A stretch of 32,892 nucleotides of DNA from an uncultured Eubacteriaceae bacterium. Lineage in GTDB: Bacteria; Bacillota; Clostridia; Eubacteriales; Eubacteriaceae. Where the stretch lies: NCBI GenBank assembly GCA_937872065.1, contig CALMRA010000223.1, forward strand, positions 1-32,892, in the 5' to 3' direction. Shown piece by piece: positions 5,943-27,679 of the stretch. Below the pieces are notes generated by a model. It made no database searches, had not been told where the DNA came from, and worked only from the letters and a program-made list of their open reading frames with translations. Within the stretch, counting starts at the first letter, position 1, and each line of letters starts with the position of its first letter. A program made the position numbers and the translations under genes.

Positions 5943-5997
5943 ACGGAACAAAACAGATAATTTGTCCGGGTCAACCGGGATAACAGACGAGGTGTAT

Positions 5998-7440: not shown

Positions 7441-7456
7441 CACCGTAGTTGAACAA

Positions 7457-7563: not shown

Positions 7564-7618
7564 GACGCTATATCCGCGCGGCTTACGAATATATTACGCG
7601 GATAAAATCGCCGATCCT

Positions 7619-7658
7619 GCTCTGGAATGCATTGCATTTCAGAGCATTTTTCTTTTTT
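7619..7658 (+). terminator. riboswitch-controlled terminator 1
   Basis: Inverted repeat GCTCTGGAAT / ATTTCAGAGC (10 bp with one G-U, 7619-7645) followed by ATTTTTCTTTTTT. Its 5' arm overlaps the antiterminator partner of the RFN element, so this is the regulated terminator. Confidence 0.85.
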
Positions 7659-7685
7659 GCCCCGCTTGCCAGCGGGGCTTTTTTG
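7659..7685 (+). terminator. riboswitch terminator 2 (tandem)
   Basis: Perfect 8-bp stem GCCCCGCT / AGCGGGGC with loop TGCC, followed by TTTTTTG. It begins directly after the T-run of terminator 1, giving two intrinsic terminators in a row 42 bases before the ribD start. Confidence 0.88.
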
Positions 7686-7727
7686 TTCCCATACGGAAAA
7701 AGGACGGTTCGACTGGAAAGGCAGACA

Positions 7728-8840
7728 ATGAGAAACGAACAGACTACAGATGAACGGGCAATGCGGTTTGCGCTGGGTCTTGCAGAAAACGGACGCTTCA
7801 CAACTGCGCCCAATCCGATGGTCGGAGCCATCGTCGTAAACGACGGCCGCATCGTCGGTCAGGGCTGGCATAAACAGGCCGGCGGTCCCCATGCGGAGCG
7901 GGTAGCTCTCGCTGACGCCGGCATCGAAGCACACGGCGCGACAATTTACGTGACGCTGGAACCCTGCTCTCACACCGGGCGGACCGGTCCGTGCACCGAA
8001 GCGATACTGGAAGCCGGCATCAGCCGCGTCGTTATCGGCGCGTCCGATCCGAACCCGAAGGCGGCGGGCGGCGCCGAGGTCCTCAGAAACGCGGGACTCG
8101 ATGTCGTAACCGGCGTCCTGAAAGAGGAATGCGAAGCGCTCAACAGAGATTTCCTTGACCGAATCAGAAACAGACGACCGTTCGTCACCATGAAAATAGC
8201 GATGACAGCCGACGGTCATACCTCGACGGCCAGCGGCGCATCCAAATGGATCACCGGCGAGGAATCCCGGAAGCATGTCCATGAAGACCGCGGCCGCAGC
8301 GCCGTGATCCTGACGGGAGTCGGAACGGTATTCGCGGACAATCCCGCGCTTACCTGCAGAGTCGGAGGCGGAAAAGATCCGATCCGGGTGGTTCTCGACA
8401 CCCATCTGCGCATCCCTGCGGACGCGACACTGGCGATGACTGCGGCTGAAACCCCGACGATCCTCGCCTGCTGTGATTTTGATCCGGACAAGGCGAAGGC
8501 GCTCGAAGACAGCGGCTGTGAAATCTGGATGATGAACGAAAAGGACGGCAGAGTCGATCTGAGCGAGCTGATCGCCCGTATCGGCGCCGAGGGCTACGAT
8601 TCGGTCTTTATCGAAGCCGGTCCCACCGTCGCATGGTCCGCGCTCTCCGCAGGCGTCGTCGACAAGCTGCAGATCTACGTCGCGCCGAAGATCTTCGGCG
8701 GAACCGGCAGGACCGCTGTCGGCGGTCCCGGCGTTCCGCTCCCGAAGGATGCGTTCCAGCTGTGTGATCCCCGGATCACGCCCATCGGCGACGATATTCT
8801 GGTGGAATACGATATTAAGCATCCTGAAAGGACCAGCTGA
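7728..8840 (+). CDS. ribD: bifunctional diaminohydroxyphosphoribosylaminopyrimidine deaminase / 5-amino-6-(5-phosphoribosylamino)uracil reductase
   Basis: Catalyses the second and third steps from GTP to riboflavin. The 370-residue protein has an N-terminal zinc deaminase domain (HAE at 55-57 and PCSHTGRTGPC supplying C80 and C89) and a C-terminal NADPH reductase domain (KIAMTADGHTSTASGASKWI onward). The ATG at 7728 is chosen because GAAAGG lies six bases upstream and MRNEQTTDERAMRFAL is a normal RibD start; the same frame is open back to 7632, but that part is the terminator sequence. First gene of the riboflavin operon, controlled by the FMN riboswitch. Its TGA overlaps the ATG of ribE. Confidence 0.96.
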   Translation: MRNEQTTDERAMRFALGLAENGRFTTAPNPMVGAIVVNDGRIVGQGWHKQAGGPHAERVALADAGIEAHGATIYVTLEPCSHTGRTGPCTEAILEAGISRVVIGASDPNPKAAGGAEVLRNAGLDVVTGVLKEECEALNRDFLDRIRNRRPFVTMKIAMTADGHTSTASGASKWITGEESRKHVHEDRGRSAVILTGVGTVFADNPALTCRVGGGKDPIRVVLDTHLRIPADATLAMTAAETPTILACCDFDPDKAKALEDSGCEIWMMNEKDGRVDLSELIARIGAEGYDSVFIEAGPTVAWSALSAGVVDKLQIYVAPKIFGGTGRTAVGGPGVPLPKDAFQLCDPRITPIGDDILVEYDIKHPERTS

Positions 8841-9472
8841 TGTTCACGGGAATCGTCGAGGAGATCGGAAAAATCAAAAATATCAGGAGAGGCTCCGCTT
8901 CGTGCAGACTCACCGTATCTGCCGACAAGGTCCTTGAAGACGTCAAGATCGGTGACAGCATCGCCACCAGCGGCGTATGCCTGACGGTGACGGATTTCGA
9001 TAAGAACAGCTTCACAGCCGACGTCATGCACGAATCCCTCGACCGTTCGGCACTCAGCTCCCTGAAAAACGGAGATCCGGTGAATCTCGAACGCGCGATG
9101 CCGGCGGACGGACGCTTCGGCGGCCATATCGTAACCGGCCACATCGACGGAACGGGACGGATTATCAAAACGCGCAGAGACGACAACGCGATCTGGTATA
9201 CCGTCGGCGCGGACAGACCGCTGCTGGCGCAGATCGTCGAGAAGGGCTCGATCACGATTGACGGAATAAGTCTGACAGTCGCGGGCTGCGGCTCCGATTC
9301 CTTCGAGGTCTCCGTCATTCCCCACACCGCCGCGCAGACGACACTTGGCGGAAAGCGCGCGGGAGCGATCGTCAATCTCGAAACCGACATCCTGTGCAAG
9401 TACGTGCAGAAGCTGATGAAGACGGAATCAGGCGGAGTTACGAAGGATCTGCTGAAACGGTACGACTTCTGA
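8840..9472 (+). CDS. ribE: riboflavin synthase, alpha subunit
   Basis: Dismutates two molecules of 6,7-dimethyl-8-ribityllumazine into riboflavin, the last step of the pathway. The 210-residue protein begins MFTGIVEEIG, the diagnostic family start, and has two lumazine-binding repeats, the second beginning GGHIVTGHIDGTGRI. The start overlaps the ribD stop as TGATG, so translation is coupled, with GAAAGGA inside ribD as ribosome binding site. Called ribE in B. subtilis nomenclature and ribC in E. coli. Confidence 0.96.
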   Translation: MFTGIVEEIGKIKNIRRGSASCRLTVSADKVLEDVKIGDSIATSGVCLTVTDFDKNSFTADVMHESLDRSALSSLKNGDPVNLERAMPADGRFGGHIVTGHIDGTGRIIKTRRDDNAIWYTVGADRPLLAQIVEKGSITIDGISLTVAGCGSDSFEVSVIPHTAAQTTLGGKRAGAIVNLETDILCKYVQKLMKTESGGVTKDLLKRYDF

Positions 9473-13860: not shown

Positions 13861-15294
13861 TTACTCCTTCGCAGTCAGGATTTCAACAGCTTCTCTCAGG
13901 GTATTTTCATTGCCCGTATTTCCGGGGAAGATGACGTACGGTGTTTTCGGGAATCGGCTTTCTTCGCCGGTCTGCCAGACGGGAATCCCCGGACAAATCT
14001 GACCGAGAACGTCGGCCCGTTTGACTGAGAGGGCTTTGGTCCCGACATCGCTGGAGGTGATTCCGCCCTTGGCGATAACGAACGCCGGGGTTTTCTTCAG
14101 TCTTCCTACGAGACTCTGGACGCCGTCGCTGATCTTGACGCTTCTCAACAAAGCGCTTTCCTTCGTATCGTCATCAAGACTCAGAAGCTTCCTGTCCGTG
14201 TAACAGACAGCCGTCTTTCCGTCGTCCATCGCAGCCTCTTCCAGCGCGACACAGCGGTCCACTTCATTATAGAAAGCTTCGTCTCCGTCGAGCACCTTAT
14301 TCGAATCAAAGGCGACCGGTACGACATTGTCGAGTTTTAACAGCTCTTCGAGCTGAGCCGTCGTTTTCTGCGTATGACTTCCGACGACGACAATACCGCC
14401 GCGTCCCGTCTGTTCCGTAACCATATCTTCCCGCGTCAGGAGCGGAATATCTGAAATTCCTCCGAGAACCTTCACGAGTCCTGCGGCAGTGCGGAACATA
14501 AACGTTTTCCCTTTTGCCATCGCCCTGTACAGCGCCACCGCGAATACCTTGATATCACAGTAGTCGATCGCATTGACGACGACCTTGCCGAAATCGTGAA
14601 CGGATTCGAGCTGCTTTTCGATTCCGTCATAGTCGCAGGCACGAAGCGAATCCAGACTGATGCATACGACATCTTCCGCCTTGTATTCACCCTTCGTCTT
14701 TTCTTCGATATATTCGGGAATATTCGAATGCTTGTAGCCGAAGGTCTTGTCCTGAGCGAATTCCGTCATTGCGGCGGGAACGAGCTCATCTCCCTGAAGA
14801 ACGTAATGGGTATTGCCGATTGTAAAGCGTCCGCCTTCCTTAAAAAACGGAGTCAGCACTTCGCCGTCTACATGGAATCCGTCCTTCTCCATTTCGTCGC
14901 GCAGCAGAGCGGGTTCGATGGGGTAATGACCCCGCAGTGTCGAGTCGCTCCTCGACATAATCAGATAAGGTCTGCCGGTTTCCTTCGCCGCCTGAGCTAC
15001 CCGTGCTCCGATCTCCTTATGTGCTTTCGTCGTTTCATCGACGGTCATTCCGCGTGAATTGGTCAGGACGTAAAAGACCTTGTTGTCTTCGTCAAATCCG
15101 GCCCGCAGACTTTCCGGTTCCCAGTCCGTGTAGACTGAAATATCATGAACCGTCTGAACGCCGGTCGGATCGTCATCCAGTACGACAATCTTCGTATTTT
15201 CGGCAGCAATTTCGTCAGCCAGCAGCGCATCGACAGCCTTTTCATCCACCGCGGGAAAGCTTTCCAGTACGGATTTCGGCAGTATCTTTTCCAT
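13861..15294 (-). CDS. four-carbon acid sugar kinase, DUF1537/OtnK family
   Basis: Expected to phosphorylate a four-carbon sugar acid (3-oxo-tetronate, threonate or erythronate type) using ATP. The 477-residue protein has the two-domain DUF1537 plan: the N-terminal IVVLDDDPTGVQTVHDISVY motif with SRSDSTLRGHYP, and the C-terminal nucleotide-binding part containing VVVGSHT, FVIAKGGITSSDVG and FPGNTG. The ATG at 15294 has AAAGGA upstream; an earlier in-frame GTG at 15321 would overlap the end of gntP. It is the third gene of an operon with a beta-hydroxyacid dehydrogenase and a GntP permease, the arrangement known for tetronate catabolism. Exact substrate not decidable from sequence. Confidence 0.9.
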   Translation of the reverse strand: MEKILPKSVLESFPAVDEKAVDALLADEIAAENTKIVVLDDDPTGVQTVHDISVYTDWEPESLRAGFDEDNKVFYVLTNSRGMTVDETTKAHKEIGARVAQAAKETGRPYLIMSRSDSTLRGHYPIEPALLRDEMEKDGFHVDGEVLTPFFKEGGRFTIGNTHYVLQGDELVPAAMTEFAQDKTFGYKHSNIPEYIEEKTKGEYKAEDVVCISLDSLRACDYDGIEKQLESVHDFGKVVVNAIDYCDIKVFAVALYRAMAKGKTFMFRTAAGLVKVLGGISDIPLLTREDMVTEQTGRGGIVVVGSHTQKTTAQLEELLKLDNVVPVAFDSNKVLDGDEAFYNEVDRCVALEEAAMDDGKTAVCYTDRKLLSLDDDTKESALLRSVKISDGVQSLVGRLKKTPAFVIAKGGITSSDVGTKALSVKRADVLGQICPGIPVWQTGEESRFPKTPYVIFPGNTGNENTLREAVEILTAKE

Positions 15295-15314
15295 GAGTAT
15301 TTTTCCTTTCAAAT

Positions 15315-16661
15315 TTAGCACAGAGGCAGTCCGACTGCCGAATTGATCAGATCGAGAATAAGTATGACGCCGAATGCGGCAAACGAGGCGATGGTTCCGC
15401 CGATGGTCCAGGATTTGAGCGTATCGGAAACGCTGAGTCCGCCGAATCGGGACAGAATCCAGAAGCCGGAGTCATTCGGCAGCGAGAAGCCGATACCGCC
15501 CGCACATATCGCAAGTCCGACAAGAACAGGCGACGCACCGGTTCCTGCTAGCGCAGGTCCGAGAATGCTTGCTGTAGTGACCAGAGCGACCGTCGTGGAG
15601 CCCTGAGAGACACGCAGCAGAGCGCTTAAAGCGAAGGCCAGAACGATGGGCGGAATATTCATCGCGGTCATCGTCTGGACAAGATAGTCGCCGATTCCGC
15701 TTTTGCTGATTACCGCGCCGAAAGCACCGCCTGCGCCTGTGATCAGAAGGATCAGCCCGGCTGATGAAGCGGCTTCCTGAACGAGATCGTCGAAGCTTCT
15801 GTGAATGTGTCTGCGGAGCATGACTACCGCAAAAATGCAGCCTGCGAGCAGGGCGATATTTTTATCTCCGAGAAATCCCATGATCATCGCGAACGTTGAA
15901 TCCGCCGGCATCAGAGCCGTGATCAGATTTCCGAGGAGAATCAGAACGATCGGAAACAGCAGCGTGAGCATTGAAAGGCCGAAGCTTGGAAGGTCGCTCC
16001 TGTCGGCAAGCTCCACTGCATCTTCGCCTTCAGGCACGTAGGGCGCGTCTTTATCGAAACGTTTGCCGTAAAGCCAGCCGCCCGCCATAATCGCGACGAA
16101 GCCTGCGATCAGAGAGTAGAGCAGGAAGCCGCCCATGTTCGCACCCATGCTGTCCGCGACGGCCAGAGGTCCCGGTGTCGGGATAACCATCGCATGACCG
16201 ACGATTGTGCCGACGCCCAGCGCGCAGATGAAGACCATCATGCTCTTCTTCGTTTCTTTTGCAACGTATTTCAGGATAGGCATCATGATGACGAATGCCG
16301 CGTCCATGAAGACGGGAATAGAGATCAGAAATCCTGCTGTCGTAATCGCGAGAGGCGCCCGTTTCGGGCCTGTGTATTTGACTAGATTTCGTGCGATAGA
16401 TTCGGTCGCGCCGGCTTCCGACAAAATATTGTCGGAAATGATGCCGAGACCGATTACAATACCGATACCTTTTAACGTACTTCCGAAGCCCGTGGCGATG
16501 GTATCTGAGATATCGCCGATAGGCATCTGTACGACGAAGCCGGTAACGATGGACGTTATCAGCATCGCGATAAACGGATTGATTTTAAACTTTATGATAA
16601 GCAGAAGCAGAAGGAGGATCGATGCCACAAAGGCGATCATCAACGGTGTTCCGGTTAGCAT
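15315..16661 (-). CDS. GntP-family gluconate/sugar-acid:proton symporter
   Basis: A 448-residue inner-membrane permease. LMIAFVASILLLLLLIIKFK and INPFIAMLITSIVTG at the N-terminus, AGATESIARNLVKYTGPKRA and the VSQGSTTVALVTTASI and SLPNDSGFW motifs toward the C-terminus are typical of GntP/Gnt-II transporters, with about a dozen spans. It lies between the dehydrogenase and the DUF1537 kinase, so the substrate is probably a short sugar acid such as threonate, erythronate or glycerate rather than gluconate. Spacing to the kinase start is about 20 bp. Confidence 0.93.
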   Translation of the reverse strand: MLTGTPLMIAFVASILLLLLLIIKFKINPFIAMLITSIVTGFVVQMPIGDISDTIATGFGSTLKGIGIVIGLGIISDNILSEAGATESIARNLVKYTGPKRAPLAITTAGFLISIPVFMDAAFVIMMPILKYVAKETKKSMMVFICALGVGTIVGHAMVIPTPGPLAVADSMGANMGGFLLYSLIAGFVAIMAGGWLYGKRFDKDAPYVPEGEDAVELADRSDLPSFGLSMLTLLFPIVLILLGNLITALMPADSTFAMIMGFLGDKNIALLAGCIFAVVMLRRHIHRSFDDLVQEAASSAGLILLITGAGGAFGAVISKSGIGDYLVQTMTAMNIPPIVLAFALSALLRVSQGSTTVALVTTASILGPALAGTGASPVLVGLAICAGGIGFSLPNDSGFWILSRFGGLSVSDTLKSWTIGGTIASFAAFGVILILDLINSAVGLPLC

Positions 16662-16714
16662 ATTTATCCCTTTCTCAACTGAGTTTTATTCGATTAAATC
16701 GAGGCCGCTCTTTG

Positions 16715-17614
16715 TTATTCTGCCGTTACGTCTGATTTTACGATCACATCTGCCAGCTGTTCGAAGAACTGAACGTATCCGCCGTGATCGTCGTCCATAT
16801 GTCCCCCTACCTTAAGCGCCTGCTGTACTTCGAACAGCTGTGCGGTAAAGGGCATCGGCACGTCGATGGTATGGGCCGTCGCCAGGACATTCTTGATATC
16901 TTTATGATTAATGCTGATCTTTCCGCCCGGCTTGAAGTTGCGCGCGCAGATCATCGGAGCTTTCGCATCGAGAACGGCGCTGCCTGCAAGGCCTCCGCGG
17001 ATCGCTTTATAAACCTTCATTGGATCCGCTCCGGCTTTTGTCGCAAGGACGAGCGCTTCGGAAACAGCCGCGATGTTCAGGTTGACGATGACCTGATTGG
17101 CAAGCTTCGTGACGCTGCCGCTTCCCGAGGGACCGATGAGCTGTGCGCTGGATCCGAGGATATCAAATACCGGCGCCATCCCGTCGAAGTCTTTTTCATC
17201 ACCGCCGCACATAATCGCAAGCGTTCCGGCTATCGCTCCGGGTTCTCCCCCCGATACAGGCGCATCGACAAATCCGACTCCGATTGCAGCGAGCTTATTA
17301 TAGCAGGTCTGACTTTCTGTCGGAGTGACACTGGACATATCGCAGACGATCTTGCCTTCCGTCAGGGTTTCTGCAAGGCCGTTTTTCCCGAACAGAACAT
17401 CCTGAACGATGGCTCCGTTCGGAAGAATCGTAACGATAATATCGCATTTTCTGCCGATTGTCTGATAATCGCCTGCTTCCGCGCCGAGCTCGACTGCTTT
17501 GGCGACCGCTTCTTTATTCAGATCGCTTACCATAAGCGGAACATCCGCCTGAAGGAGATTTTTAGCCATTGGGAGACCCATGATTCCGAGACCGATAAAT
17601 CCAACATTTTTCAT
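16715..17614 (-). CDS. beta-hydroxyacid dehydrogenase (LtnD / tartronate-semialdehyde reductase family)
   Basis: NAD(P)-dependent oxidation of a 2- or 3-hydroxy acid. The 299-residue protein starts MKNVGFIGLGIMGLPMAKNL (Rossmann GxGxxG), has the substrate motif DAPVSGGEPGA (about 117-127) and the catalytic lysine K170 in GSVTKLANQ. The ATG at 17614 has GAGGAAG upstream; the longer open frame to 17725 covers promoter sequence. First gene of the acid-sugar operon. The family includes L-threonate 2-dehydrogenase (LtnD) and tartronate-semialdehyde reductase (GarR/GlxR); pairing with a DUF1537 kinase favours an LtnD-like role. Confidence 0.9.
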   Translation of the reverse strand: MKNVGFIGLGIMGLPMAKNLLQADVPLMVSDLNKEAVAKAVELGAEAGDYQTIGRKCDIIVTILPNGAIVQDVLFGKNGLAETLTEGKIVCDMSSVTPTESQTCYNKLAAIGVGFVDAPVSGGEPGAIAGTLAIMCGGDEKDFDGMAPVFDILGSSAQLIGPSGSGSVTKLANQVIVNLNIAAVSEALVLATKAGADPMKVYKAIRGGLAGSAVLDAKAPMICARNFKPGGKISINHKDIKNVLATAHTIDVPMPFTAQLFEVQQALKVGGHMDDDHGGYVQFFEQLADVIVKSDVTAE

Positions 17615-17666
17615 TTTACTTCCTCTTTCCCCTGCTACGTTCAGCAAATAATTTATAATTCCGTAT

Positions 17667-17680
17667 ACCGGTATACCGGT
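17667..17680. promoter_or_regulatory. operator O2 of the acid-sugar operon
   Basis: Perfect 14-base palindrome ACCGGTATACCGGT, sharing the 12-base core CCGGTATACCGG with the large palindrome at 17787-17818. It lies about 10-23 bases downstream of the predicted transcription start of the dehydrogenase operon, where a bound repressor would block transcription. It overlaps a second palindrome, TATACCGGTATA (17664-17675). Confidence 0.75.
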
Positions 17681-17695
17681 GTTCCCTTGATTTGT

Positions 17696-17725
17696 ATCAT
17701 AAACCCTAACCGGGATCCCGGTCAA
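17696..17725 (-). promoter_or_regulatory. promoter of the acid-sugar operon
   Basis: TTGACC (17720-17725) and TATGAT (17696-17701) on the minus strand with an 18-base spacer. The spacer contains the palindrome CCGGGATCCCGG (17710-17721), a near copy of the operator core with GATC in place of TATA. Confidence 0.65.
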
Positions 17726-17786
17726 GCAAATTTTCTAATTTTCTTTATTTTTCGTTCAATGTTTCCTGAATCCATGGGAATTTAAA

Positions 17787-17818
17787 ATATTACATTCCGG
17801 TATACCGGAATGTAATAT
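17787..17818. promoter_or_regulatory. operator O1, perfect 32-bp palindrome overlapping the gntR-type promoter
   Basis: The half-site ATATTACATTCCGGTA is followed by its exact complement, a 32-base perfect palindrome. It contains the CCGGTATACCGG core also found at 17668-17679. A TTACAT (17790-17795) and TAATAT (17813-17818) pair with 17-base spacing lies wholly inside it, so the regulator would cover its own promoter. Confidence 0.85.
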
Positions 17819-17862
17819 GATAGAATTAAATAAAGACAGAGTATTCAGTAAAGGAGAAGGTT

Positions 17863-18525
17863 ATGGCGGACGCACGCCTGCTCCAGGACAAGGTTTACCG
17901 TCAGCTGAAGGATAAGATCAACGGCGGCGAGCTGTCTCACGGGCAGATCTATTCGGAAACAAAACTGGCTTCCGAGCTCGGAGTATCGAGAACTCCGATG
18001 AAGGATGCACTCAGACGCCTGAGCCAGGATCGTTTTATCGACATCATTCCGAGCAAGGGGTTCAAGCTGCATGAAATGACTGAGGACGATATCTGGAACA
18101 CCTATCAGACACGCATGGCAATCGAAGGCTTCTGCGCGCTGCATCTTGCTCAGAATAAAAATACGCTGGAAGGAAAAAAGGCGTTAAAAAATATGAAGCG
18201 CAGCATCCGTGATATGCAGGAATCGATTGAAAACGGAGAAACGCGTGAAAATGTCCTCGAGGACGATATGCGGTTTCATGAAATTCTCGTTCACTTTTCC
18301 CAGAACCGCGAGCTCATCGATCTGTACGAATCCTACAATCACCGCCTGAATGCAATCGCGATGGAAAGCTTCGAAAAAGAAAACCGGCAGAGCGACGCGC
18401 TCACCGAACACGAAGCGATTTACAACGCGATTGTCGACGCCTCGGAGGATCCGGATATGAACGCCTATCAGGCGGTGCGCAGCCATATGGAAGCGTCGCG
18501 GGATATCGCGCTGAATCTGCTGTGA
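17863..18525 (+). CDS. GntR-family regulator, FCD (FadR-like) subfamily
   Basis: A 220-residue repressor or activator. The N-terminal winged helix (about 1-75) contains SETKLASELGVSRTPMKDAL and PSKGFKLHEM; the C-terminal FCD domain (about 80-215) keeps likely metal-ligand residues in DDMRFHEILVHF, TEHEAIYNAI and RSHMEASRDI. AAGGAGAAGG precedes the ATG. It is divergent from the dehydrogenase-GntP-kinase operon, and the shared palindromic core occurs in front of both transcription units, so it very probably controls that operon and itself in response to a sugar acid. Confidence 0.92.
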   Translation: MADARLLQDKVYRQLKDKINGGELSHGQIYSETKLASELGVSRTPMKDALRRLSQDRFIDIIPSKGFKLHEMTEDDIWNTYQTRMAIEGFCALHLAQNKNTLEGKKALKNMKRSIRDMQESIENGETRENVLEDDMRFHEILVHFSQNRELIDLYESYNHRLNAIAMESFEKENRQSDALTEHEAIYNAIVDASEDPDMNAYQAVRSHMEASRDIALNLL

Positions 18526-18600
18526 CTCTGGTACGACCGGACCGCTTTTATGGAAACCGGACGGAAGTAAATACGATCAGCTGATTATAATTAAACATTC

Positions 18601-18629
18601 AAAAAGGGCCGGAACTCTCGTTCCGGCCC
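18601..18629 (-). terminator. terminator of the fructose-family PTS operon
   Basis: Perfect 10-bp stem GGGCCGGAAC / GTTCCGGCCC with a 4-base loop, followed on the minus strand by TTTTTG. On the plus strand the same hairpin may end the gntR-type gene, though its T-run there is weak. Confidence 0.9.
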
Positions 18630-18647
18630 TAATCATTTACGATGAGT

Positions 18648-18956
18648 TTATTCGAATGTCTTTTTGATTTTCTTGACCAGCGGCTTCGCCTTCTTGATCA
18701 GATCGGAGACGCCCATTCTGATAATCTTCTTGCCCTTAAAGCGTTCTTCTTCGCGGATTGCGACGTCGTTAGACAATACCACGCATACCGCATTGTCGAT
18801 ATCTGCTTTCGACAGCCTGTTTTCAATTCCCGCGCTGCCCTGAGTTTCAATCAGTACGTCTATGCCTTCATCTTTTCCCGCCATTGCCAGAGCTTCTGCC
18901 GCCATATATGTGTGTGCTACTCCTGAGGGACATGCTGTTACGCCTACGATTTTCAT
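18648..18956 (-). CDS. PTS fructose-family EIIB subunit
   Basis: Cytoplasmic phosphocarrier that passes phosphate from EIIA to the incoming sugar. The 102-residue single domain has the active-site cysteine C9 in TACPSGVAHTYMAA, which identifies the fructose family. Last gene of the operon, 86 bp after the EIIC gene and just before the terminator at 18601-18629. Confidence 0.95.
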   Translation of the reverse strand: MKIVGVTACPSGVAHTYMAAEALAMAGKDEGIDVLIETQGSAGIENRLSKADIDNAVCVVLSNDVAIREEERFKGKKIIRMGVSDLIKKAKPLVKKIKKTFE

Positions 18957-19042
18957 TTTATCTCCTTTACTTTTGTGTTTTGTGATCGAATTTGTTCGTA
19001 TTTCATTTATCTGCGTTCTGATTTCTAATCTGAACAGTCTGT

Positions 19043-20098
19043 TTAGAAGGTTTCGAAATTCAGTTCGATATCTTCGTCTTCTACCGCCCCGTGCGTTTCT
19101 TCATCGACCGGCGCCTTCTTGAATATTCCGACCAGTGCGACCACAACCGCCGCTCCCAGCATCACCGATAAGAAATAAGCCAGCCTGTGATCCACTACCG
19201 GGAGTACGATAAGCCCTCCCCAGGGTGCGTGATTGAGACATCCGCACATGAACGCCGTCGCGCAGGCTGTAGCGGAACCTGCCACATACATCGGGATAAT
19301 CTTCAGATCTGCCGTCGCATACGGGATCGCGCCTTCTGTGATCCCCATACAGCCCATCAGAATCGCTGCAAATCCCTGATCGCGTTCCGCCTGAGTGAAT
19401 CTCTTCTTGAAAATCAGCGTCGCTAAACCGATTCCGATCGGCGGGACCGCTCCTGCAGCTCCGACACCGCCCATCAGGTACGGAAGCGTATCGACCTGGG
19501 TCTGAGCAAATGTATAGGCAACCTTATTAATAGGCCCGCCCATGTCAACGCCGACCATTGCTCCGAGAATAACACCGAGGGGAACCTTCGCCATACCGGA
19601 CAGGCTGTTGAGCCAGTTAGTCAGCCAGGTCATAAACCATGCGATCGGTCCGCCGATGACAAATACGATAAGTCCGCCTGTAATGAGTGTGGCGCCGAGG
19701 GGATAGATGAAGATGGTTTTAAGGGTGCGGTACTGAGACGGAAGCTTGATCTTTTCAAGCAGCTTGATCGCATAGCCTGCGATAAAGCCGGCGACAATTC
19801 CGCCGATAAATCCTGCCCCGATTTCTCTGGCCAGATAGGCTCCGATAAAACCGGGAGCAAGACCCGGCTTATCCGCTATACTGAACGCGATGTAGCCGCC
19901 GAGAACCGGTATGAACAGCGCGAGTCCCGCGGAACCGATCTGATTGAGCTGGGCGAGCCAGCCGCTTGTCGGAACCGACGCTTCCCCGTTTAACATGATG
20001 GAGACTGCGAAAAGAATTCCGCCGGCTACGACGAAGGGGATCATGTATGAGGTAGCCGTCATCAGATGAGACTGAAGGGTTTTAGCAGCGTTTTTCAT
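19043..20098 (-). CDS. PTS fructose-family EIIC subunit
   Basis: Membrane channel of the PTS transporter, 351 residues with about nine or ten hydrophobic spans. MTATSYMIPFVVAGGILFA near the start, GFIGAYLAREIGAGFIGGI and GMGGPINKVAY-like and GITEGAIPYA segments are typical of fructose EIIC. Its ATG overlaps the stop of the EIIA gene by four bases (ATGA), coupling their translation. Family members carry fructose, mannitol-like or other ketose or 2-deoxy sugars, so the name does not fix the substrate. Confidence 0.94.
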   Translation of the reverse strand: MKNAAKTLQSHLMTATSYMIPFVVAGGILFAVSIMLNGEASVPTSGWLAQLNQIGSAGLALFIPVLGGYIAFSIADKPGLAPGFIGAYLAREIGAGFIGGIVAGFIAGYAIKLLEKIKLPSQYRTLKTIFIYPLGATLITGGLIVFVIGGPIAWFMTWLTNWLNSLSGMAKVPLGVILGAMVGVDMGGPINKVAYTFAQTQVDTLPYLMGGVGAAGAVPPIGIGLATLIFKKRFTQAERDQGFAAILMGCMGITEGAIPYATADLKIIPMYVAGSATACATAFMCGCLNHAPWGGLIVLPVVDHRLAYFLSVMLGAAVVVALVGIFKKAPVDEETHGAVEDEDIELNFETF

Positions 20099-20556
20099 TT
20101 GTCGAACTCCTTGAGATTAGTCTGTATTAATTCATAAATGCCGTTTTTATCACCGCTTCTCAGATCGTCGCGGAAATCGTCGTGGATGAGAAGACGCGAG
20201 AGCTTTGACAAGATCTGCAGATGGAGATTGTTGTCTGTTTCGGCCTGGACCGCGATCATGATAATCAGGCTCACCTTCTCACCCGATTCTTCATCCCATA
20301 GGATTTCTTCCGGGAGCTTTGCGATACACAGTCCCGCTTCGTTTACGCCGCCGCTCTTGCCGTGGGGAAGTCCGATCTGATAGCCGATGTATGTCGAGAA
20401 TACCTTTTCGCGTTCGAGAACGTCCTGATAGAACTGTTCGACGTCGCTCAGATAACCCGCCCGGTCAAGGCAGCCCGCCATTTCCCGGATAATATCGTTT
20501 TTTTCTGCAGCGCTGACATCCGTTACGATGCAGTCTTTATTCAAAATTGGGAGCAT
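20095..20556 (-). CDS. PTS fructose-family EIIA subunit
   Basis: Accepts phosphate from HPr. The 153-residue domain carries the phospho-histidine H65 in IGLPHGKSGGV. GAGG lies just before the ATG, inside the end of the regulator gene, which it overlaps by 20 bases. Together with the separate EIIC and EIIB it makes a complete three-part PTS. Confidence 0.95.
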   Translation of the reverse strand: MLPILNKDCIVTDVSAAEKNDIIREMAGCLDRAGYLSDVEQFYQDVLEREKVFSTYIGYQIGLPHGKSGGVNEAGLCIAKLPEEILWDEESGEKVSLIIMIAVQAETDNNLHLQILSKLSRLLIHDDFRDDLRSGDKNGIYELIQTNLKEFDK

Positions 20557-22570
20557 TTTCTACCTCTGATTCGTGTTTTTTAATCATATTCATTGCCGTC
20601 TGGGGGTCCCCGGCCGCCTTCAGATCCTCAAGCAGAGACGTTCTGCTCATCATCCGGATCAGGCTTATGACCGCGGGGATATGTTCCTTCTTGTCCCGGC
20701 TTGCCAGACAGAAAATCAGGTTTACCTGTTTATCGCCGAACTGAACCGGTTCTCGTGAGATGAGGAGACTCATGGCGCTTTCCGTGACGCCGGCCCGTTC
20801 GCTGCCATGAAGCAGCGCGAATTTCTCATCGGTTACCGCGTAAAAGCCCTGGGCCTGTATGCCGCGCATCACGCTTTCCCGATATTCCGGTGTGATTCCG
20901 CCCCGGCTGATCAGCGGCCCGGTACACAGATCGACCGCTTCTCTCCAGTCGGGAGCTCTTTCGATAATCCGGATATCTTCCTGTCTGAGCAGATCGGACA
21001 GTGAATAATATTTCTGGGGCATCCGGACTTCCTTATAGCCGAGCTCTTCCTTGATGACGTCCATCACCCTGTTTTTGTCCGCCGCGTTTAGAAAGCCGAG
21101 TCGCCGTTCGATGGCGAAATATTCAGTCAGTATCTTTTTCTTCGTCAGGCCCAGATTATCAAGCTTCTCATAATCCTTCCGGTCGAAAATAACGTTTACC
21201 TTCGCGAAGGGCTTGTCCACCGGAAGCTCGACTCCGACCGTCGAGACCACTGCGTCGACGGAATCCCACTCGTCAAAGTTTTCGACCCTGTATGCGGGGA
21301 TGCATTTGTAAACCTGTACCTGATATTCGTTGATCAGCGCGTCCTTGACGACGGCTGTCGTTCCGTAGCCGTAACCGCAGATCAGCAGCAGCGTCCGGTA
21401 TTCGTCGGACTTCATGCGTCTGAGACTTCCGATAAAGAAAATCGCCAGATAAACCGCTTCGTTTTCCGTAAGCTCGGACAGGCTTCTGTCTCTTTTCAGA
21501 ATTTTATCGAGATTCTGATAAACATAATCGTATGATTCCGGAATAAACGAGTCTGTCGAATTATCGAGCTGTTCGCCGCTTTCGAGACGCTGGAGCATCG
21601 GCCCGATGTGATTGAGCAGACCCTTCATCAGGATCCCGTCCTTTGAAAAGCTGACGCCCAGCGTCCTTTCCATTTCTCTGACGAGAAGGACGGCTGTGTC
21701 TTCCACCGAGATCAGGTTCTGTGTCAGATCCAGATTGACATATTTATTCGTATATTTTTCGTAGCCTGCCAGCACGCTTTTCTGTTCGTCCGTCAGAGTC
21801 AGGCCGGCAGCTTCTTCGTATCGGCTGATCAGTCCGCCGGAATTTTTCCTGAGATCGACCCCCTTCAGGGGGAGCGGTTTGTTCCTGACAACGTACCAGG
21901 TAAAGGTCAGAACGCTTGAGACGTACCACTGAAAGGTCTCGTCACTGAGAACCCACTGCATCTCATCCATCATGCCGCGTATCCATTCAAGGATCCGGCT
22001 CAGATCGGGGGGAGCGATCATGTCGCGGACGATCGGACAGACGGTTTTCTCGTAGACGTTCACAAAGTGTTTCTTGTAAAGCAGCGTTACGCTTTTCTGT
22101 ATCTCGGACTGCCTGAGTCCGTAGCTTGTAAGTGGATCCTCCGAAATTCTGAATTTTCGTTCATAGTGAAGCCGGATCCCGTATGGGGCGAACTCCTGTT
22201 CCACAGCTGCGATATCGTTCTGTATCGAGCGTCTGGAGACCTGGAGCTCCCGGCTCATGCTGCTGATGTTAAGCTTTTTCGTATCAAACAGGATCAGAAG
22301 CCGGATTATCGAAGCCCGTTCTTCATTCGTGAAGATATATGATTCCTCGTCGAAGAGCTCGGTGAGATCGAGATCGTCGGGGAGAAAAAGCATCCCCTTC
22401 GGATACCGTTCGATCTGTGCCAGACCTTTCAGATGCAGTTCGTCGTTGATGGCGTCCACATCGTATCTGACAGATCGTTCCGAAAGTCCGAGAGCTTCGG
22501 CAGTTTCTTTATAGCTTGCCATACGTTCCCGATTCAGAAATTTTGCGATATCCATCGTTCTCTTCTTCAT
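20537..22570 (-). CDS. PRD-containing transcriptional regulator with PTS EIIB- and EIIA-like domains
   Basis: A 677-residue regulator of the ManR/MtlR type, controlling transcription according to PTS phosphorylation. Domains in order: HTH (about 5-60), second HTH of the M-trans type (about 85-140), two PRDs (about 170-390), EIIB of the Gat type with C398 in LLICGYGYGTT, and a fructose/mannitol EIIA with H588 in FALLHGSERAG. In PRD2 the first histidine is present (H321 in LLNHIGPML) but the position usually His in the YLALHF motif is Phe (YLAIFF); PRD1 also lacks an obvious His. It is the second gene of the operon it probably regulates and overlaps the EIIA gene. Confidence 0.93.
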   Translation of the reverse strand: MKKRTMDIAKFLNRERMASYKETAEALGLSERSVRYDVDAINDELHLKGLAQIERYPKGMLFLPDDLDLTELFDEESYIFTNEERASIIRLLILFDTKKLNISSMSRELQVSRRSIQNDIAAVEQEFAPYGIRLHYERKFRISEDPLTSYGLRQSEIQKSVTLLYKKHFVNVYEKTVCPIVRDMIAPPDLSRILEWIRGMMDEMQWVLSDETFQWYVSSVLTFTWYVVRNKPLPLKGVDLRKNSGGLISRYEEAAGLTLTDEQKSVLAGYEKYTNKYVNLDLTQNLISVEDTAVLLVREMERTLGVSFSKDGILMKGLLNHIGPMLQRLESGEQLDNSTDSFIPESYDYVYQNLDKILKRDRSLSELTENEAVYLAIFFIGSLRRMKSDEYRTLLLICGYGYGTTAVVKDALINEYQVQVYKCIPAYRVENFDEWDSVDAVVSTVGVELPVDKPFAKVNVIFDRKDYEKLDNLGLTKKKILTEYFAIERRLGFLNAADKNRVMDVIKEELGYKEVRMPQKYYSLSDLLRQEDIRIIERAPDWREAVDLCTGPLISRGGITPEYRESVMRGIQAQGFYAVTDEKFALLHGSERAGVTESAMSLLISREPVQFGDKQVNLIFCLASRDKKEHIPAVISLIRMMSRTSLLEDLKAAGDPQTAMNMIKKHESEVENAPNFE

Positions 22571-22604
22571 CTTTTCCTGCTCCTGTCGTGAGCGCTGCTC
22601 CGTA

Positions 22605-23870
22605 TCAGGAGCAGGCTTTTTCGATTTTACTGGTCAGACCTTCCATATTGAAGCATCTGACGTGCTTTTCCATTTCTTCCTTAAGCTTGTCGATCACGTA
22701 GCGCTGTCCGTCGATATCCAGCTTGTCGAGGTTCGCATACAGCTTTTCGATTTCCGCAGCCACGTCTTCGTTGGAGAAGGTGTAGTGTCCGCACAGCTCT
22801 GTGATCTGTTCCTTCGTATCGTCGCTGAGACCTTCAAGGTTTGACATGTCGACTTCATCGGTGAGCCATTTCTTCCACTTCATCGAATAGATCGAATCGT
22901 GAGTCAGCACTTCTCTGAGATTTGACGGGTTTTCGATGATGCCCAGATCTGCAAATTTGTCTTCGACGTTGAGGAGTTCGAGCAGCGCGCGGGTTTCGAT
23001 GGTTCCGAAGGCCGGCGCAACGTTCATCGCGGTGATTCCGAGGGGCAGATGGGCCATCAGCTTGTCTTCGCTGAGGTAGTCGCCGTTGTGTTCCTTCAGG
23101 CCTACGCCGTATTTCTTCGCGATGGTGCTAAGCTTCTTCGAATTTTTATAGTCGAAGTGTCCGACATTCTTCGTCAGTCGCGTAAGCGTTCCTGTCTGAC
23201 CTACGATAAACAGCGGCATCGGAAGTCCGTGTTCTGTCGTGTATTCCTGGATCCGCTTGATGAAATCTTCGTAGCGGTCGAGAGATGTCAGGCCGCCGCT
23301 GGTTTCTTCCGTACCGACTTCATAGGCGATTTCCTTTTCGATCCCGTAGTCTTTTCTGACCTGTTCGCAGTATTCGATAAGTTCGACTGTCCGGTTAAAG
23401 ACGACGTCGATGTCGACTACCTTGCACATTTCGTCGGGATCCTTCGTCGGGTCGATATGGAGAAGATCGAAGCCGTTGAGAATATCTTCCTTATAGGATT
23501 CCTTCGCCAGTTCCATTGCCTGCGCTTCCGGCAGATGGTCGTTTCTTTCCTTGTCGCGCTGCCACGGTCCGCCGTGGTCGCGGCACAGGTAGTAGACATT
23601 ATCGTAGTCGATTTCGTCGCAGATCGCGTCGATCTTTTCTTTAAAACGCTTCTGGTCTGCTCCGAAAACGTAGCCTGCTCCGAATTTATCCGCATCGATC
23701 TGGTTGCGGCTCGCGATGTACATCAGAGGAAAATCCTGTTCCTTTGAGATTTCGAGAGATGCTCTCAGAAAATTTTCCGACATCGGACCGATGCCCAGCA
23801 TCGTAAATTTTTCATCTTCAGAATTAACAACAAATTTTACTGCGTCGGTAATGTTGACATGATTTTTCAT
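22605..23870 (-). CDS. GatZ/KbaZ-like protein (class II tagatose-bisphosphate aldolase non-catalytic subunit family)
   Basis: A 421-residue cytoplasmic protein of the Tagatose_6_P_K/GatZ-KbaZ family. VYYLCRDHGGPWQRD (metal-binding style CRDHGGPW), LLHIDPTKDP, AYEVGTEETSGGL and GLKEHNGDYL match the family. In E. coli these proteins support the catalytic aldolases GatY/KbaY; some relatives have been reported to act alone as ketohexose-6-phosphate 4-epimerases. The ATG at 23870 has GAGGAA upstream; the open frame to 23966 is leader. First gene of the PTS operon, 34 bp before the regulator. No GatY/KbaY partner lies in the window, which favours an independent enzyme acting on the imported sugar phosphate. 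Confidence 0.9.
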   Translation of the reverse strand: MKNHVNITDAVKFVVNSEDEKFTMLGIGPMSENFLRASLEISKEQDFPLMYIASRNQIDADKFGAGYVFGADQKRFKEKIDAICDEIDYDNVYYLCRDHGGPWQRDKERNDHLPEAQAMELAKESYKEDILNGFDLLHIDPTKDPDEMCKVVDIDVVFNRTVELIEYCEQVRKDYGIEKEIAYEVGTEETSGGLTSLDRYEDFIKRIQEYTTEHGLPMPLFIVGQTGTLTRLTKNVGHFDYKNSKKLSTIAKKYGVGLKEHNGDYLSEDKLMAHLPLGITAMNVAPAFGTIETRALLELLNVEDKFADLGIIENPSNLREVLTHDSIYSMKWKKWLTDEVDMSNLEGLSDDTKEQITELCGHYTFSNEDVAAEIEKLYANLDKLDIDGQRYVIDKLKEEMEKHVRCFNMEGLTSKIEKACS

Positions 23871-23946
23871 AATTATTCCTCTTTCTTGTCGACATATCAG
23901 ACGTTGACCGGTCGTGTCTTGAATCGTCGTTCCTTTTGATAAGTTA

Positions 23947-23975
23947 ATAATAAAGCCTGGCGACAATTCCGATAA
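23947..23975 (-). promoter_or_regulatory. probable promoter of the GatZ-PTS operon
   Basis: TTATCG (23970-23975) and TATTAT (23947-23952) on the minus strand, 17 bases apart. The weak -35 suits activation by the PRD regulator. Upstream, AGAAAACGTTTGAT (around 24014-24027) loosely resembles a catabolite-response element. Confidence 0.5.
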
Positions 23976-24041
23976 GATAAAAGAAATAGAAGTTAAAATT
24001 ACAAAAAGTTCACATCAAACGTTTTCTTAAAACGCGAACTA

Positions 24042-24069
24042 CCCCGACTCACAAGAAAGTGAGCCGGGG
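24042..24069 (-). terminator. possible terminator of the HAD gene
   Basis: CCCCG-A-CTCAC pairs with GTGAG-C-CGGGG around AAGAAA. The T-rich stretch on the minus strand comes only after about ten bases, so it is a weak candidate. Confidence 0.4.
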
Positions 24070-24083
24070 CATCCGTTAAACGA

Positions 24084-24125
24084 CTGACCGGCCGGCGATA
24101 TGAAATCGCCTGACAGACCGGTCAG
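24084..24125. repeat. two-step hairpin after the HAD gene
   Basis: Outer stem CTGACCGG / CCGGTCAG and inner stem GGCGAT / ATCGCC. Together with the hairpin at 24042-24069 it makes a structured 3' region without a good T-run. Confidence 0.4.
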
Positions 24126-24146
24126 CTGATACAATAATCTGGCAAT

Positions 24147-24848
24147 CTACCCGATGAGCTTTCTGACGAGCTTCGACAGCTCTTCGTCCGTCGTGACCAT
24201 ATAGTTCGGCCTCGGTCCGTCGGCCGGCTGCTCGTACTTTCTTCTGTTTATCCAGATCGAGTTCCACCCCGCTCCGGCTGCGCCCGTAATATCGTTGATG
24301 TACGCGTCTCCGACGTACCATGTGTTTTCAGGCGTCAGCTCCATGCCGTCCTCCGCGAGTCTGAAGATCCCGACGTCCGGCTTCGCGATGCCGACGGCTT
24401 CCGAGATAAACAGATCGCTGTCCGGAATCCAGCGTTCCATGCCGAGAGCGTTGAATTTATCCTGCTGATGATCCTCCGGTCCGTTGGTGATGATCCCGAG
24501 ACGGACCTTCCCGTCGCAGTAATCGAGAAGCTCCTTCATCGTCTCCGACATCTCGATATGATTCTGATAGCCCGAGTAGATTTTCTGAAACTCAAGCGCC
24601 TCGTCATCCGTGATGTCGATCCCGAAATCGCGGAACGCGTTTTTGATCCGGTAGATATACATTTCATCCATCGTGATCTCACCGCGCATCGACTGGTCGT
24701 AGACCTCGTCGCTGTACCTGCGGCTGCTGACGTACAGATCGTAAACCGGAATATCGTAACGGTCTTTATATAGATCTTCATAAGCTTTCACGAAAGGTGA
24801 AGTCTGATCATATAAAGTATCGTCAATATCAAATAATAATGCGTTCAT
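24147..24848 (-). CDS. HAD-superfamily hydrolase (YjjG-like phosphatase)
   Basis: A 233-residue cytoplasmic phosphatase of unknown substrate. Motif I is LLFDIDDTLYDQ (nucleophile D7, acid D9), motif II is GIITNGPEDHQ, the conserved lysine is in GIAKPDVGIF, and motif IV is WYVGDAYINDITGA. A helical cap separates motifs I and II, as in subfamily IA and YjjG nucleotidases. The ATG at 24848 has GAGG upstream; an ATG at 24881 has none. It is upstream of the GatZ-PTS operon but separated by 276 bp with hairpins and a promoter, so it is probably transcribed separately. Dephosphorylation of sugar phosphates or non-canonical nucleotides is plausible. Confidence 0.9.
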   Translation of the reverse strand: MNALLFDIDDTLYDQTSPFVKAYEDLYKDRYDIPVYDLYVSSRRYSDEVYDQSMRGEITMDEMYIYRIKNAFRDFGIDITDDEALEFQKIYSGYQNHIEMSETMKELLDYCDGKVRLGIITNGPEDHQQDKFNALGMERWIPDSDLFISEAVGIAKPDVGIFRLAEDGMELTPENTWYVGDAYINDITGAAGAGWNSIWINRRKYEQPADGPRPNYMVTTDEELSKLVRKLIG

Positions 24849-25068
24849 TTTATCCTCACTTTGTCGGTTTATATTGTTCATATCGCATGGTCTGTCTTAT
24901 ATTTAGTAAAATCGATTTAAAGATATAGTTTCAGTATACATAAAATAGACTGTCTTACATCAGCCGGCTGAATTAAAATAAAAACAGAAACCGTTCGACA
25001 GCCGCTTCTCGCACAGTATCCGGCTGACAAAACGGGACTCTCAGAAAATTTGCAAACATCGAAAGCAG

Positions 25069-25971
25069 GTGAATCTCTTGCTCCGTCAACTCAGATACTT
25101 TCAGGCTGTCGTACGATGCGGCAGCTTTACCGAAGCCGCGGAAGAATGCTTTATTTCCCAGTCCGCAATCTCCCAGCAGATCCAGGCGCTGGAGCGCGAG
25201 CTGGGCTTTCAGCTTCTTAAACGCGGAAACCGCAGCTTTACCCTGACTCCGGCCGGCGAGTACTTTTATCAGAAAAGCCTGATCCTGACCGCGGATTATG
25301 AAAAGATATGCCGGGAGGCTTCGAAGATCGCGTACGGCGATCTTCCCCGCCTTCGTCTCGGCTATCTTCGGGGCTACGCGGGTCCCGAGCTGCAGCTGGC
25401 CCTCGCGGAATTTACGGAAGAATTTCCCGAAGTCGAAACGAGCGTCGTCACCGGCAATCACGAAGAGCTGTATATGCTGCTGCTGAAAGGAGGCGTGGAT
25501 CTGATTCTCAGCGACCAGCGCAGAGTCTTCTCGGAAGACTACAACAACCTGATCCTGACAAGGAGCGAATGCTCCGTCGAAATATCGGCGAGAAATCCCA
25601 TCGCTCAGGCGGAAAGCGTCGAGATCGCGGATCTGAAAAATACGCCGTGTATCATCGTCTCTTCTGTCGAACAGCAGGAAAACGAACGCGAATTCTATCA
25701 TAATGTCGTCGGATTTAACGGTGATTTCATTTTTGCGGAAAATCTAGAAGAAGCCAGGATGATGGTCGCCGGCGGAAAGGGCGTCATGCCTGTGGAGGGC
25801 GGAGATTCGTTTCAGTTTACCGCGACCATCCGGCGTCTGCTTCTCCTCAGGAACGGAAAGCCGGTGATCCGCAACTACTGCGCCTTCTGGCCGCTGAATG
25901 ATGAAAACAAGTATAATGACGATTTCGCGGAAATACTGGAAGCGCAGTTTACCGGTAAAACTGAAGAATAG
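25069..25971 (+). CDS. LysR-family transcriptional regulator
   Basis: A 300-residue regulator. The N-terminal winged HTH contains LRQLRYFQAVVRCGSFTEAA and FISQSAISQQIQALERELG; the rest is a type 2 periplasmic-binding-like effector domain (RLRLGYLRGYAGPEL onward). No ATG is available at the expected place: GTG at 25069 or TTG at 25078 must be used. TTG has AGGTGA five bases upstream and gives the common MLRQLRYF start, so it is a serious alternative. First of three regulator genes in a row; divergent from the HAD phosphatase. Confidence 0.9.
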   Translation: MNLLLRQLRYFQAVVRCGSFTEAAEECFISQSAISQQIQALERELGFQLLKRGNRSFTLTPAGEYFYQKSLILTADYEKICREASKIAYGDLPRLRLGYLRGYAGPELQLALAEFTEEFPEVETSVVTGNHEELYMLLLKGGVDLILSDQRRVFSEDYNNLILTRSECSVEISARNPIAQAESVEIADLKNTPCIIVSSVEQQENEREFYHNVVGFNGDFIFAENLEEARMMVAGGKGVMPVEGGDSFQFTATIRRLLLLRNGKPVIRNYCAFWPLNDENKYNDDFAEILEAQFTGKTEE

Positions 25972-26017
25972 CCGCCGAAATACTAATGACCATGATCAAG
26001 AATGATACGGAATAACT

Positions 26018-26845
26018 ATGGAAAATTTCGACTTTTCAAACGAATATGAGCAGAGCCTCGACGCCTTCGTCTATACCTGCGGATATGAAAAATGCGAGCC
26101 GTCCCATTCCTACGGACCGGTCATCCGGAGCGGCTACATGATCCACTCGATCCTCGACGGAAAGGGAATCTATCTGGCCCGCGGCAGGAAACTCGAGCTG
26201 TCCGCCGGAGATGCGTTTCTGATCGTTCCCGGAGAGCCGGTCTATTACGAAGCGGATGAGACGGAGCCCTGGACCTACGCGTGGATGGGCTTTCACGGCG
26301 CTAAAATCGAGAATTATATCGAACGGACCAGTCTGCTGGACACCCTCGTCTGCAGCTACGGAGACGACGAACGCTTCTTTTACTGTCATGAGAAGATGTA
26401 CGGTGCCAACAGAGCCGGACGCAATAAGGATCTGCTTATGAACAGCGTGCTCCATGAATTTCTGTTTATGCTCGCGGAGAAATTTCCGAATCAGAACGTG
26501 ACGACCGAGAAGAAGACGCGCTCCTACGTCGAAGAAGCAGTCCGCTTCGTCGATTCGAATTATCAGAATCCGGTTAACATTGCGAAGATCGCTCAGGAGC
26601 TCAATGTGAACCGCTCCTATCTGTACCGCCTGTTCAAGGAACGGACCGGCATTTCCCTGCAGGAGTACCTGCTGAACGTCCGGATCAGCAGGGCCTGCCG
26701 GATGCTCGCAGATTCCGATTATCCTGTCGGAATGATCGCGCTGTCCGTGGGATACGAAGACGCGATGTACTTTTCGAGGCTCTTCAAGTCGAGAAAAGGC
26801 GTGTCGCCGTCGAGGTACAGGAAAATTCACTTAAAATCTGAATAG
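26018..26845 (+). CDS. AraC-family transcriptional regulator with cupin-like sensor domain
   Basis: A 275-residue regulator. The N-terminal arm/cupin (about 30-95: GKGIYLARGRKLELSAGDAF, then WTYAWMGFHG) resembles sugar-sensing AraC proteins of Bacillota such as MsmR types. The C-terminal double HTH (about 175-270) includes VNIAKIAQELNVNRSYLYRL and ALSVGYEDAMYFSRLFKSRKG. The start has only a weak GGA site. It lies 46 bp after the LysR gene and 27 bp before the MerR gene in the same direction. The downstream, convergent beta-glucoside operon is a natural candidate target. Confidence 0.92.
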   Translation: MENFDFSNEYEQSLDAFVYTCGYEKCEPSHSYGPVIRSGYMIHSILDGKGIYLARGRKLELSAGDAFLIVPGEPVYYEADETEPWTYAWMGFHGAKIENYIERTSLLDTLVCSYGDDERFFYCHEKMYGANRAGRNKDLLMNSVLHEFLFMLAEKFPNQNVTTEKKTRSYVEEAVRFVDSNYQNPVNIAKIAQELNVNRSYLYRLFKERTGISLQEYLLNVRISRACRMLADSDYPVGMIALSVGYEDAMYFSRLFKSRKGVSPSRYRKIHLKSE

Positions 26846-26872
26846 ATCTGCCGAAAGGAGGCCGGTACAATT

Positions 26873-27679
26873 ATGAAATATACGGCAAAGGATGTCTGCC
26901 GCATGCTTAACATCACGCGGGAGACCCTTCGTTACTACGAAAAGGTCGGCATTATACATCCGGAGATCGATCCTGTAAATAAATACCGTTATTATGACGA
27001 CTGGGACATCAACTATATCTATGAATGCAAGAAGTATCAGTCACTCGGCTTTTCGGTTAAAGAAGTCCTCGAAATTTTCAGCCGGGGGTCCTACACAAGC
27101 TTTAATGAAAAAATCGAAGAAAAGCAGAAAGAGTTTCTGGAAAAAGCCCGGTTTTATTCTAACCTTGCGATCAAAAACGAACATTATCTGAATACGATCA
27201 GAGATATTCCGGAAACTCTCGGAAGATGCCGGCTTATCGAAACTCGAGAAACGTATTTCATTCCCTACAGAGAAAATTTCGAATACACACTCGATCATGA
27301 AAAACTGAAGGTCGTACATCAGGCCCTCGATTATTATTCGTTTTTTGACAACACAGTCTACATCGATCTGAAGGATTATCTGGAGGATAACGATCGCTTT
27401 CACTGGGGACTCAGTATCGAAAAAAGATATGCGGAATTTGTGGAGATGTCTTTCGATCATATGACCTTTCTGCCGCGCAGAAAAGCCGTGTATTCGATCG
27501 TCGATGCCGGCGAACGCTGGAACTTCAGCAACAGTCTTTTTGACGGTATGAAAGCTTACGCAGAGGAGCGGGGATTGAAGCCTGACGGACCCGTCCACGC
27601 GAACCTTCTCACCCGGATCTTTCATCGAAACCGGTTCGCGAGGTATCTGGAAACCTATATGCCGGTATACGTAATATAA
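26873..27679 (+). CDS. MerR-family transcriptional regulator
   Basis: A 268-residue regulator. The N-terminal MerR HTH is clear (KYTAKDVCRMLNITRETLRY, then YEKVGIIHPEID), followed by a helical coiled coil (about 75-110, IEEKQKEFLEKARFYSN) and a C-terminal domain of about 150 residues that resembles GyrI/BmrR-type ligand-binding domains. AAAGGAGG precedes the ATG. It is the last of three same-strand regulators; the terminator after it points mainly the other way, serving the convergent glucosidase gene. Confidence 0.9.
   Translation: MKYTAKDVCRMLNITRETLRYYEKVGIIHPEIDPVNKYRYYDDWDINYIYECKKYQSLGFSVKEVLEIFSRGSYTSFNEKIEEKQKEFLEKARFYSNLAIKNEHYLNTIRDIPETLGRCRLIETRETYFIPYRENFEYTLDHEKLKVVHQALDYYSFFDNTVYIDLKDYLEDNDRFHWGLSIEKRYAEFVEMSFDHMTFLPRRKAVYSIVDAGERWNFSNSLFDGMKAYAEERGLKPDGPVHANLLTRIFHRNRFARYLETYMPVYVI

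Follow-up and report, generated by a model that had tools for sequence, protein, structure and literature searches.

A rare fructose-type PTS operon with a divergent GatZ/KbaZ-like protein, a probable ketose-phosphate epimerase, in an uncultured Eubacteriaceae bacterium

Gene content and layout of the operon

The window, by which we mean the whole 32,892-nucleotide stretch of DNA analysed here, carries on its minus strand a run of five genes encoding a GatZ-like protein, a PRD-type regulator, and the EIIA, EIIC, and EIIB components of a fructose-family PTS. A HAD phosphatase gene lies immediately upstream. From upstream to downstream, the features are as follows.

24147..24881, minus strand: HAD family IA phosphatase (PF00702/PF13419), whose position next to the GatZ-like gene is conserved in loci L004, L033, and L048
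24041..24070, minus strand: strong RNA hairpin between the HAD and GatZ-like genes, with a 12-pair stem and a weak T tract (z-score -5.6)
22605..23870, minus strand: 421-aa protein from a divergent GatZ_KbaZ-like subfamily, probably a ketose-phosphate epimerase (PF08013, 61.3 bits)
20537..22570, minus strand: PRD-type transcription regulator with an EIIA-2 domain at its C terminus (HTH_11, HTH_Mga, PRD, PTS_EIIA_2)
20095..20556, minus strand: fructose-family EIIA (TIGR00848, 116.7 bits against a cut-off of 103.5)
19043..20098, minus strand: fructose-family EIIC (NF007787, PRK10478; 436.9 bits against a cut-off of 426)
18648..18956, minus strand: fructose-family EIIB (NF007783, PRK10474; 145 bits against a cut-off of 135)
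18605..18630, minus strand: intrinsic terminator ending the operon, with an 11-pair stem and a T run

An earlier sequence-only reading of this DNA had listed the same five genes, assigned their PTS to the fructose family, placed a terminator at the end of the operon, and reported neither a GatY/KbaY aldolase nor a bisphosphate kinase, and each of these claims held. The PTS parts score above the NCBIfam cut-offs of TIGR00848, TIGR00829, TIGR01427, NF007783, and NF007787, which identifies a fructose-family system with separate EIIA, EIIB, and EIIC; the PRK10474 and PRK10478 models passed by EIIB and EIIC, respectively, are described as "fructose-like." The EIIA gene overlaps both of its neighbours, the regulator and EIIC genes. 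The genes examined from 13861 to 27679, around the operon, include neither GatY/KbaY nor a bisphosphate kinase, and our literature searches returned no account of this operon. Since the hairpin at 24041 to 24070 separates the HAD gene from the GatZ-like gene, the former may have its own transcript; the hairpin suggests either that this transcript ends there or that read-through into the operon is regulated.

Rfam searches detected no RNA elements within the operon. Elsewhere in the window, an FMN riboswitch (RF00050, 113 bits) lies at 7453 to 7567 on the plus strand. The neighbouring cluster at 13861 to 18525 combines a plus-strand GntR regulator gene with minus-strand genes for a tartronate-semialdehyde-reductase-like dehydrogenase, a GntP permease, and a four-carbon-acid-sugar kinase, and it probably serves a separate sugar-acid pathway.

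Family placement and active site of the GatZ-like protein

Assignment of the leading gene to the GatZ/KbaZ family, as first proposed, stands at the level of the superfamily and fails for ordinary GatZ. The protein scores 61.3 bits against PF08013 (gathering cut-off, 26.7), covering profile positions 12 to 375 of 420, but only 48.1 bits against the GatZ/KbaZ equivalog TIGR02810, whose curated cut-off is 568.8, and it is 21 to 25% identical to canonical GatZ proteins. By these scores, it falls inside the PF08013 superfamily and outside the equivalog. A PDB search with the single protein sequence returned no match, while a profile built from six subfamily members picked up 2fiq and 3txv, both structures of the GatZ type, with E values of about 1e-8. 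An AlphaFold model, built from only four close sequences and used for a fold check alone given its poor mean pLDDT of 53, had the same two structures as its top matches (2fiq, Z of 14.6; 3txv, Z of 13.6), followed by the tagatose 4-epimerases 9kcs (Z of 12.3) and 9lhw (Z of 11.0). The latter two, which are named for activity on nonphosphorylated tagatose/fructose, were not detected by sequence in the profile searches. Altogether, the protein is best read as a member of a separate subfamily within the GatZ/KbaZ superfamily, representing a kind of enzyme that is itself already known.

Relatives of this family had been said to act as epimerases, which is borne out by E. coli GatZ and KbaZ, both of which convert fructose 6-phosphate to tagatose 6-phosphate (PMC11907403). 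In GatZ, metal binding and catalysis have been assigned to D87, H88, E171, and H257, and Cys20, Glu44, and Lys279 are reported to be conserved marks of the GatZ/KbaZ family (PMC11907403). Our active-site alignment covered seven proteins of the subfamily and five canonical GatZ/KbaZ proteins. The catalytic Asp and the metal ligands correspond to D98, H99, E188, and H261 of the GatZ-like protein and are invariant in all seven subfamily members. The three family marks, present as C, E, and K in all five canonical proteins, are replaced by G28, I52, and N283 throughout the subfamily, and GatZ position 47, which is Ser or Ala in canonical proteins, is Arg (R55) in all seven. Subfamily members also carry an extra basic loop of about eight residues (WQRDKERND) behind the DHGGPW motif and lack the C-terminal GatZ segment (the SQYLP region). 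Because the catalytic residues are intact while the marks of GatZ are replaced, the chemistry has probably been kept and the pocket changed, and tagatose 6-phosphate and fructose 6-phosphate should not be assumed to be the substrates.

Comparison of the subfamily with class II aldolase profiles in hhalign gave a match of only 8% probability. In this weak alignment, D264, which is invariant in both GatZ and the subfamily, is matched with the HGAS-motif Ser of the aldolases and P286 with the Thr that follows it, residues that hold the C1 phosphate in class II aldolases; R55 falls inside the loop that holds the C6 phosphate in those enzymes. The placement of D264 and R55 hints at a substrate with C1 free and a phosphate at C6, an argument that is soft given the alignment probability and its dependence on residue roles carried over from class II aldolases. 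The same comparison bears on whether the protein could itself be an aldolase that cleaves a ketose phosphate into a triose and a triose phosphate. N283 matches an Asn that is invariant in class II aldolases and is Lys in canonical GatZ, a point in favour of an aldolase, but the metal ligands follow GatZ, with Glu188 in the place of GatZ Glu171 rather than the three-His pattern of aldolases, and the equivalents of aldolase Gln48 and Asn24 are missing. We therefore regard an aldolase as very improbable.

Recurrence of the module, its accessory enzymes, and sugar genes of the host

A search for the same gene block in other genomes, which the sequence-only reading had proposed, recovered it from five: three MAGs (L004, L005, and L006), the one-contig genome G354 (L033), and G1007 from the same phylum (L048). 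Since the same genes occur together in five further genomes, their grouping is not due to chance. In the three MAGs, the enzyme is 80 to 83% identical to that of the window and the regulator about 47 to 51%; the L004 contig ends within EIIC. Enzyme identity is 56% in G354 and 55% in G1007, and since the PTS of G1007 is only 35 to 44% identical, the enzyme is the conserved core of the module. GatY/KbaY was absent from the operon in the window and in all five related loci; in L005, a class II aldolase belongs to a different cluster some 4 kb upstream.

Despite this recurrence, the operon is a rare and scattered sugar-import module of gut-type Firmicutes. Among 101 relatives, a close subfamily member was found in the window's genome only; the second match of this search was a canonical GatZ. 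Clear members numbered 3 among 391 genomes of the class, 1 among 397 genomes of the family of G439, and 2 among 398 genomes of the phylum, too few to allow a large family alignment. Such scattered occurrence fits an accessory operon that moves horizontally. L034 (8826 to 10841) holds a more distant GatZ-like gene (40% identity), placed directly after a gene resembling ribulose-/allulose-phosphate 3-epimerases and in a cluster that also encodes an acyl carrier protein, an AMP-ligase-like protein, a glycosyltransferase-like protein, and transporters. This is possibly a rare-sugar biosynthesis cluster that employs both epimerases.

The HAD phosphatase gene, which the sequence-only reading had passed over, adjoins the GatZ-like gene in four of the six loci: it lies upstream of that gene in the window and in L004, and it closes the gene run in L033 and L048. 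The other two loci, L005 and L006, have a ribokinase-family kinase gene instead, and both kinase-carrying genomes still encode a HAD homologue, located in an unrelated neighbourhood. A paralogue of this kinase was also seen in L070 and L071, within another operon alongside a class II aldolase and a small P-loop kinase, joined in L070 by DeoC-like and Ula-like PTS genes. The possibility that module-associated HAD proteins form a clade of their own was rejected, as they are interleaved with others. Given this and the presence of HAD homologues, near aspS, in 7 of 100 relatives that lack the module, the enzyme may be a general phosphatase. Its link to the module is positional and, though suggestive of a shared pathway step, does not prove one.

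The first reading had also called for a search of the host genome for gatY/kbaY and kinase genes, and this uncovered both GatY and a 1-PFK-type kinase. The genome holds one PF08013 gene, five class II aldolase matches, and eight PfkB-type matches. On contig 199 (L026, G000; 3885 to 9002), a galactitol-type PTS operon without GatZ encodes EIIC-Gat, a galactitol-1-phosphate dehydrogenase-like protein (GatD), a 1-PFK-type kinase, and GatY; contig 182 encodes an AgaS/GlmD-like isomerase, a 1-PFK-type kinase, and a truncated aldolase. With these kinase and aldolase genes, the host already has an aldolase route for tagatose 6-phosphate.

The GatY of contig 199 raises the question of whether the GatZ-like protein could be a noncatalytic partner that stabilizes an aldolase encoded elsewhere, such as this one. 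We give the idea very little credence. The galactitol operon is complete on its own, the conserved catalytic residues of the GatZ-like protein are what would be expected of an enzyme, and GatY of another Firmicutes member, B. licheniformis, functions without GatZ (PMC10101011). Moreover, carrier genome G441 (completeness not stated) combines the module with just one class II aldolase match, which scores below the tagatose-aldolase cut-off. In L035, L036, and L049, canonical GatZ genes share their clusters with genes for a GatD-like dehydrogenase and an FGGY-type kinase; a class II aldolase-like gene lies near the last of these, and no GatY was seen in the clusters of L035 and L036, which come from the class, so a solitary gene of the GatZ type is not in itself odd.

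Candidate reactions and pathway

We favour, at slightly better than even confidence, an explanation in which the operon is a PTS-fed module for ketose catabolism built around an active C6-phosphate ketose epimerase of its own subfamily. The PTS operon would feed the breakdown of a ketose, and the GatZ-like protein would act as a metal-dependent epimerase that, by retro-aldol chemistry, breaks a ketose phosphate between C3 and C4 and joins it again. Its substrate would probably carry a phosphate on C6 and none on C1, and its product would probably enter glycolysis, with fructose 6-phosphate the likeliest. The HAD phosphatase, or the ribokinase-family kinase in other lineages, might adjust phosphorylation or clear a dead-end phosphate. 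We count in favour of this explanation the intact D98, H99, E188, and H261 together with the matches to 2fiq, 3txv, and 9kcs, the better conservation of the enzyme than of the regulator or PTS across loci, and the reported activity of GatZ and KbaZ (PMC11907403). We count against it the poor AlphaFold model and weak aldolase alignment, as well as the further step that would be needed ahead of a C6-phosphate epimerase if the PTS delivers tagatose 1-phosphate.

In a simpler scheme, D-tagatose would enter through the PTS as tagatose 6-phosphate, which the GatZ-like protein would convert to fructose 6-phosphate in one step. Canonical GatZ/KbaZ proteins perform this reaction (PMC11907403), the catalytic residues for it are intact, no kinase or aldolase would be needed in the operon, and GatZ occurs without GatY in L035 and L036. 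We nonetheless consider this unlikely, since all four GatZ pocket and signature residues examined are replaced in every subfamily member, identity to canonical GatZ is low, the accessory HAD or kinase would be left unexplained, and the characterized tagatose PTS of B. licheniformis, also of the fructose type, produces tagatose 1-phosphate, according to a title cited in PMC10101011. The broader single-enzyme ketose-phosphate reading put forward earlier thus survives in part: the intact catalytic residues make a helper role improbable, but the pocket is changed, and because a HAD or kinase gene accompanies the module, the route is not obviously one of a single enzyme.

Fructose-type PTSs usually phosphorylate at C1, and the GatZ-like protein might instead epimerize the resulting ketose 1-phosphate, for example tagatose 1-phosphate to fructose 1-phosphate, for use by a 1-phosphofructokinase encoded elsewhere. 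The 1-PFK-type kinases of the host and a pocket unlike that of the 6-phosphate enzyme GatZ would suit this scheme, which we hold to be doubtful because Asp 264, invariant in GatZ and the subfamily, occupies the place of the C1-phosphate-site Ser of class II aldolases and because the 40%-identical relative beside a 3-epimerase-like gene in L034 suggests substrates with a distal phosphate. Hypothetically, a C1-specific PTS could be paired with a C6-phosphate epimerase if the HAD or the kinase moved the phosphate. In the fullest form of this idea, the HAD frees the ketose from a PTS-made ketose 1-phosphate, a kinase rephosphorylates it at C6, and the GatZ-like protein, from a subfamily with a new substrate, epimerizes it into glycolysis, with the operon keeping the gene for one of these two accessory enzymes and the rest of the genome providing the other. 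We hold this complete sequence of steps to be at least as doubtful as epimerization at the 1-phosphate level.

Our favoured C6-phosphate epimerase has parallels in several known systems. E. coli GatZ/KbaZ (PF08013, TIGR02810; 2fiq) shares its fold, metal ligands, catalytic Asp, and setting in a PTS operon, yet is 21 to 22% identical, has C20, E44, S47, and K279 where the GatZ-like protein has G, I, R, and N, lacks the extra basic loop, retains the SQYLP region, and is found beside GatY and with a galactitol- or mannose-type rather than a fructose-type PTS. Rhizobial tagatose 6-phosphate epimerases (3txv), in the work of Wichelecki (2015) and Kohlmeier (2019) as cited in PMC11907403, likewise act without GatY; as described there, these are canonical GatZ proteins in pathways with ABC transporters and kinases, unlike the divergent, PTS-linked subfamily here. 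The tagatose pathway of B. licheniformis (fructose-type PTS, TagK, and GatY) also uses a fructose-type PTS to feed on a rare ketose, but it proceeds through tagatose 1-phosphate, a kinase, and an aldolase and needs no GatZ-type protein.

GatZ and KbaZ were long labelled noncatalytic helpers, and their role as epimerases has been recognized only recently. What is new here is a subfamily inside a known kind of enzyme, not a new kind of system. As a divergent branch whose pocket is altered yet conserved among its members, linked to a PTS and never accompanied by GatY in its operon, it offers a compact natural test of what GatZ-type proteins can do and is a candidate source of new rare-sugar epimerases. 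For the organisms that carry it, the operon would define a rare-ketose niche among gut bacteria.
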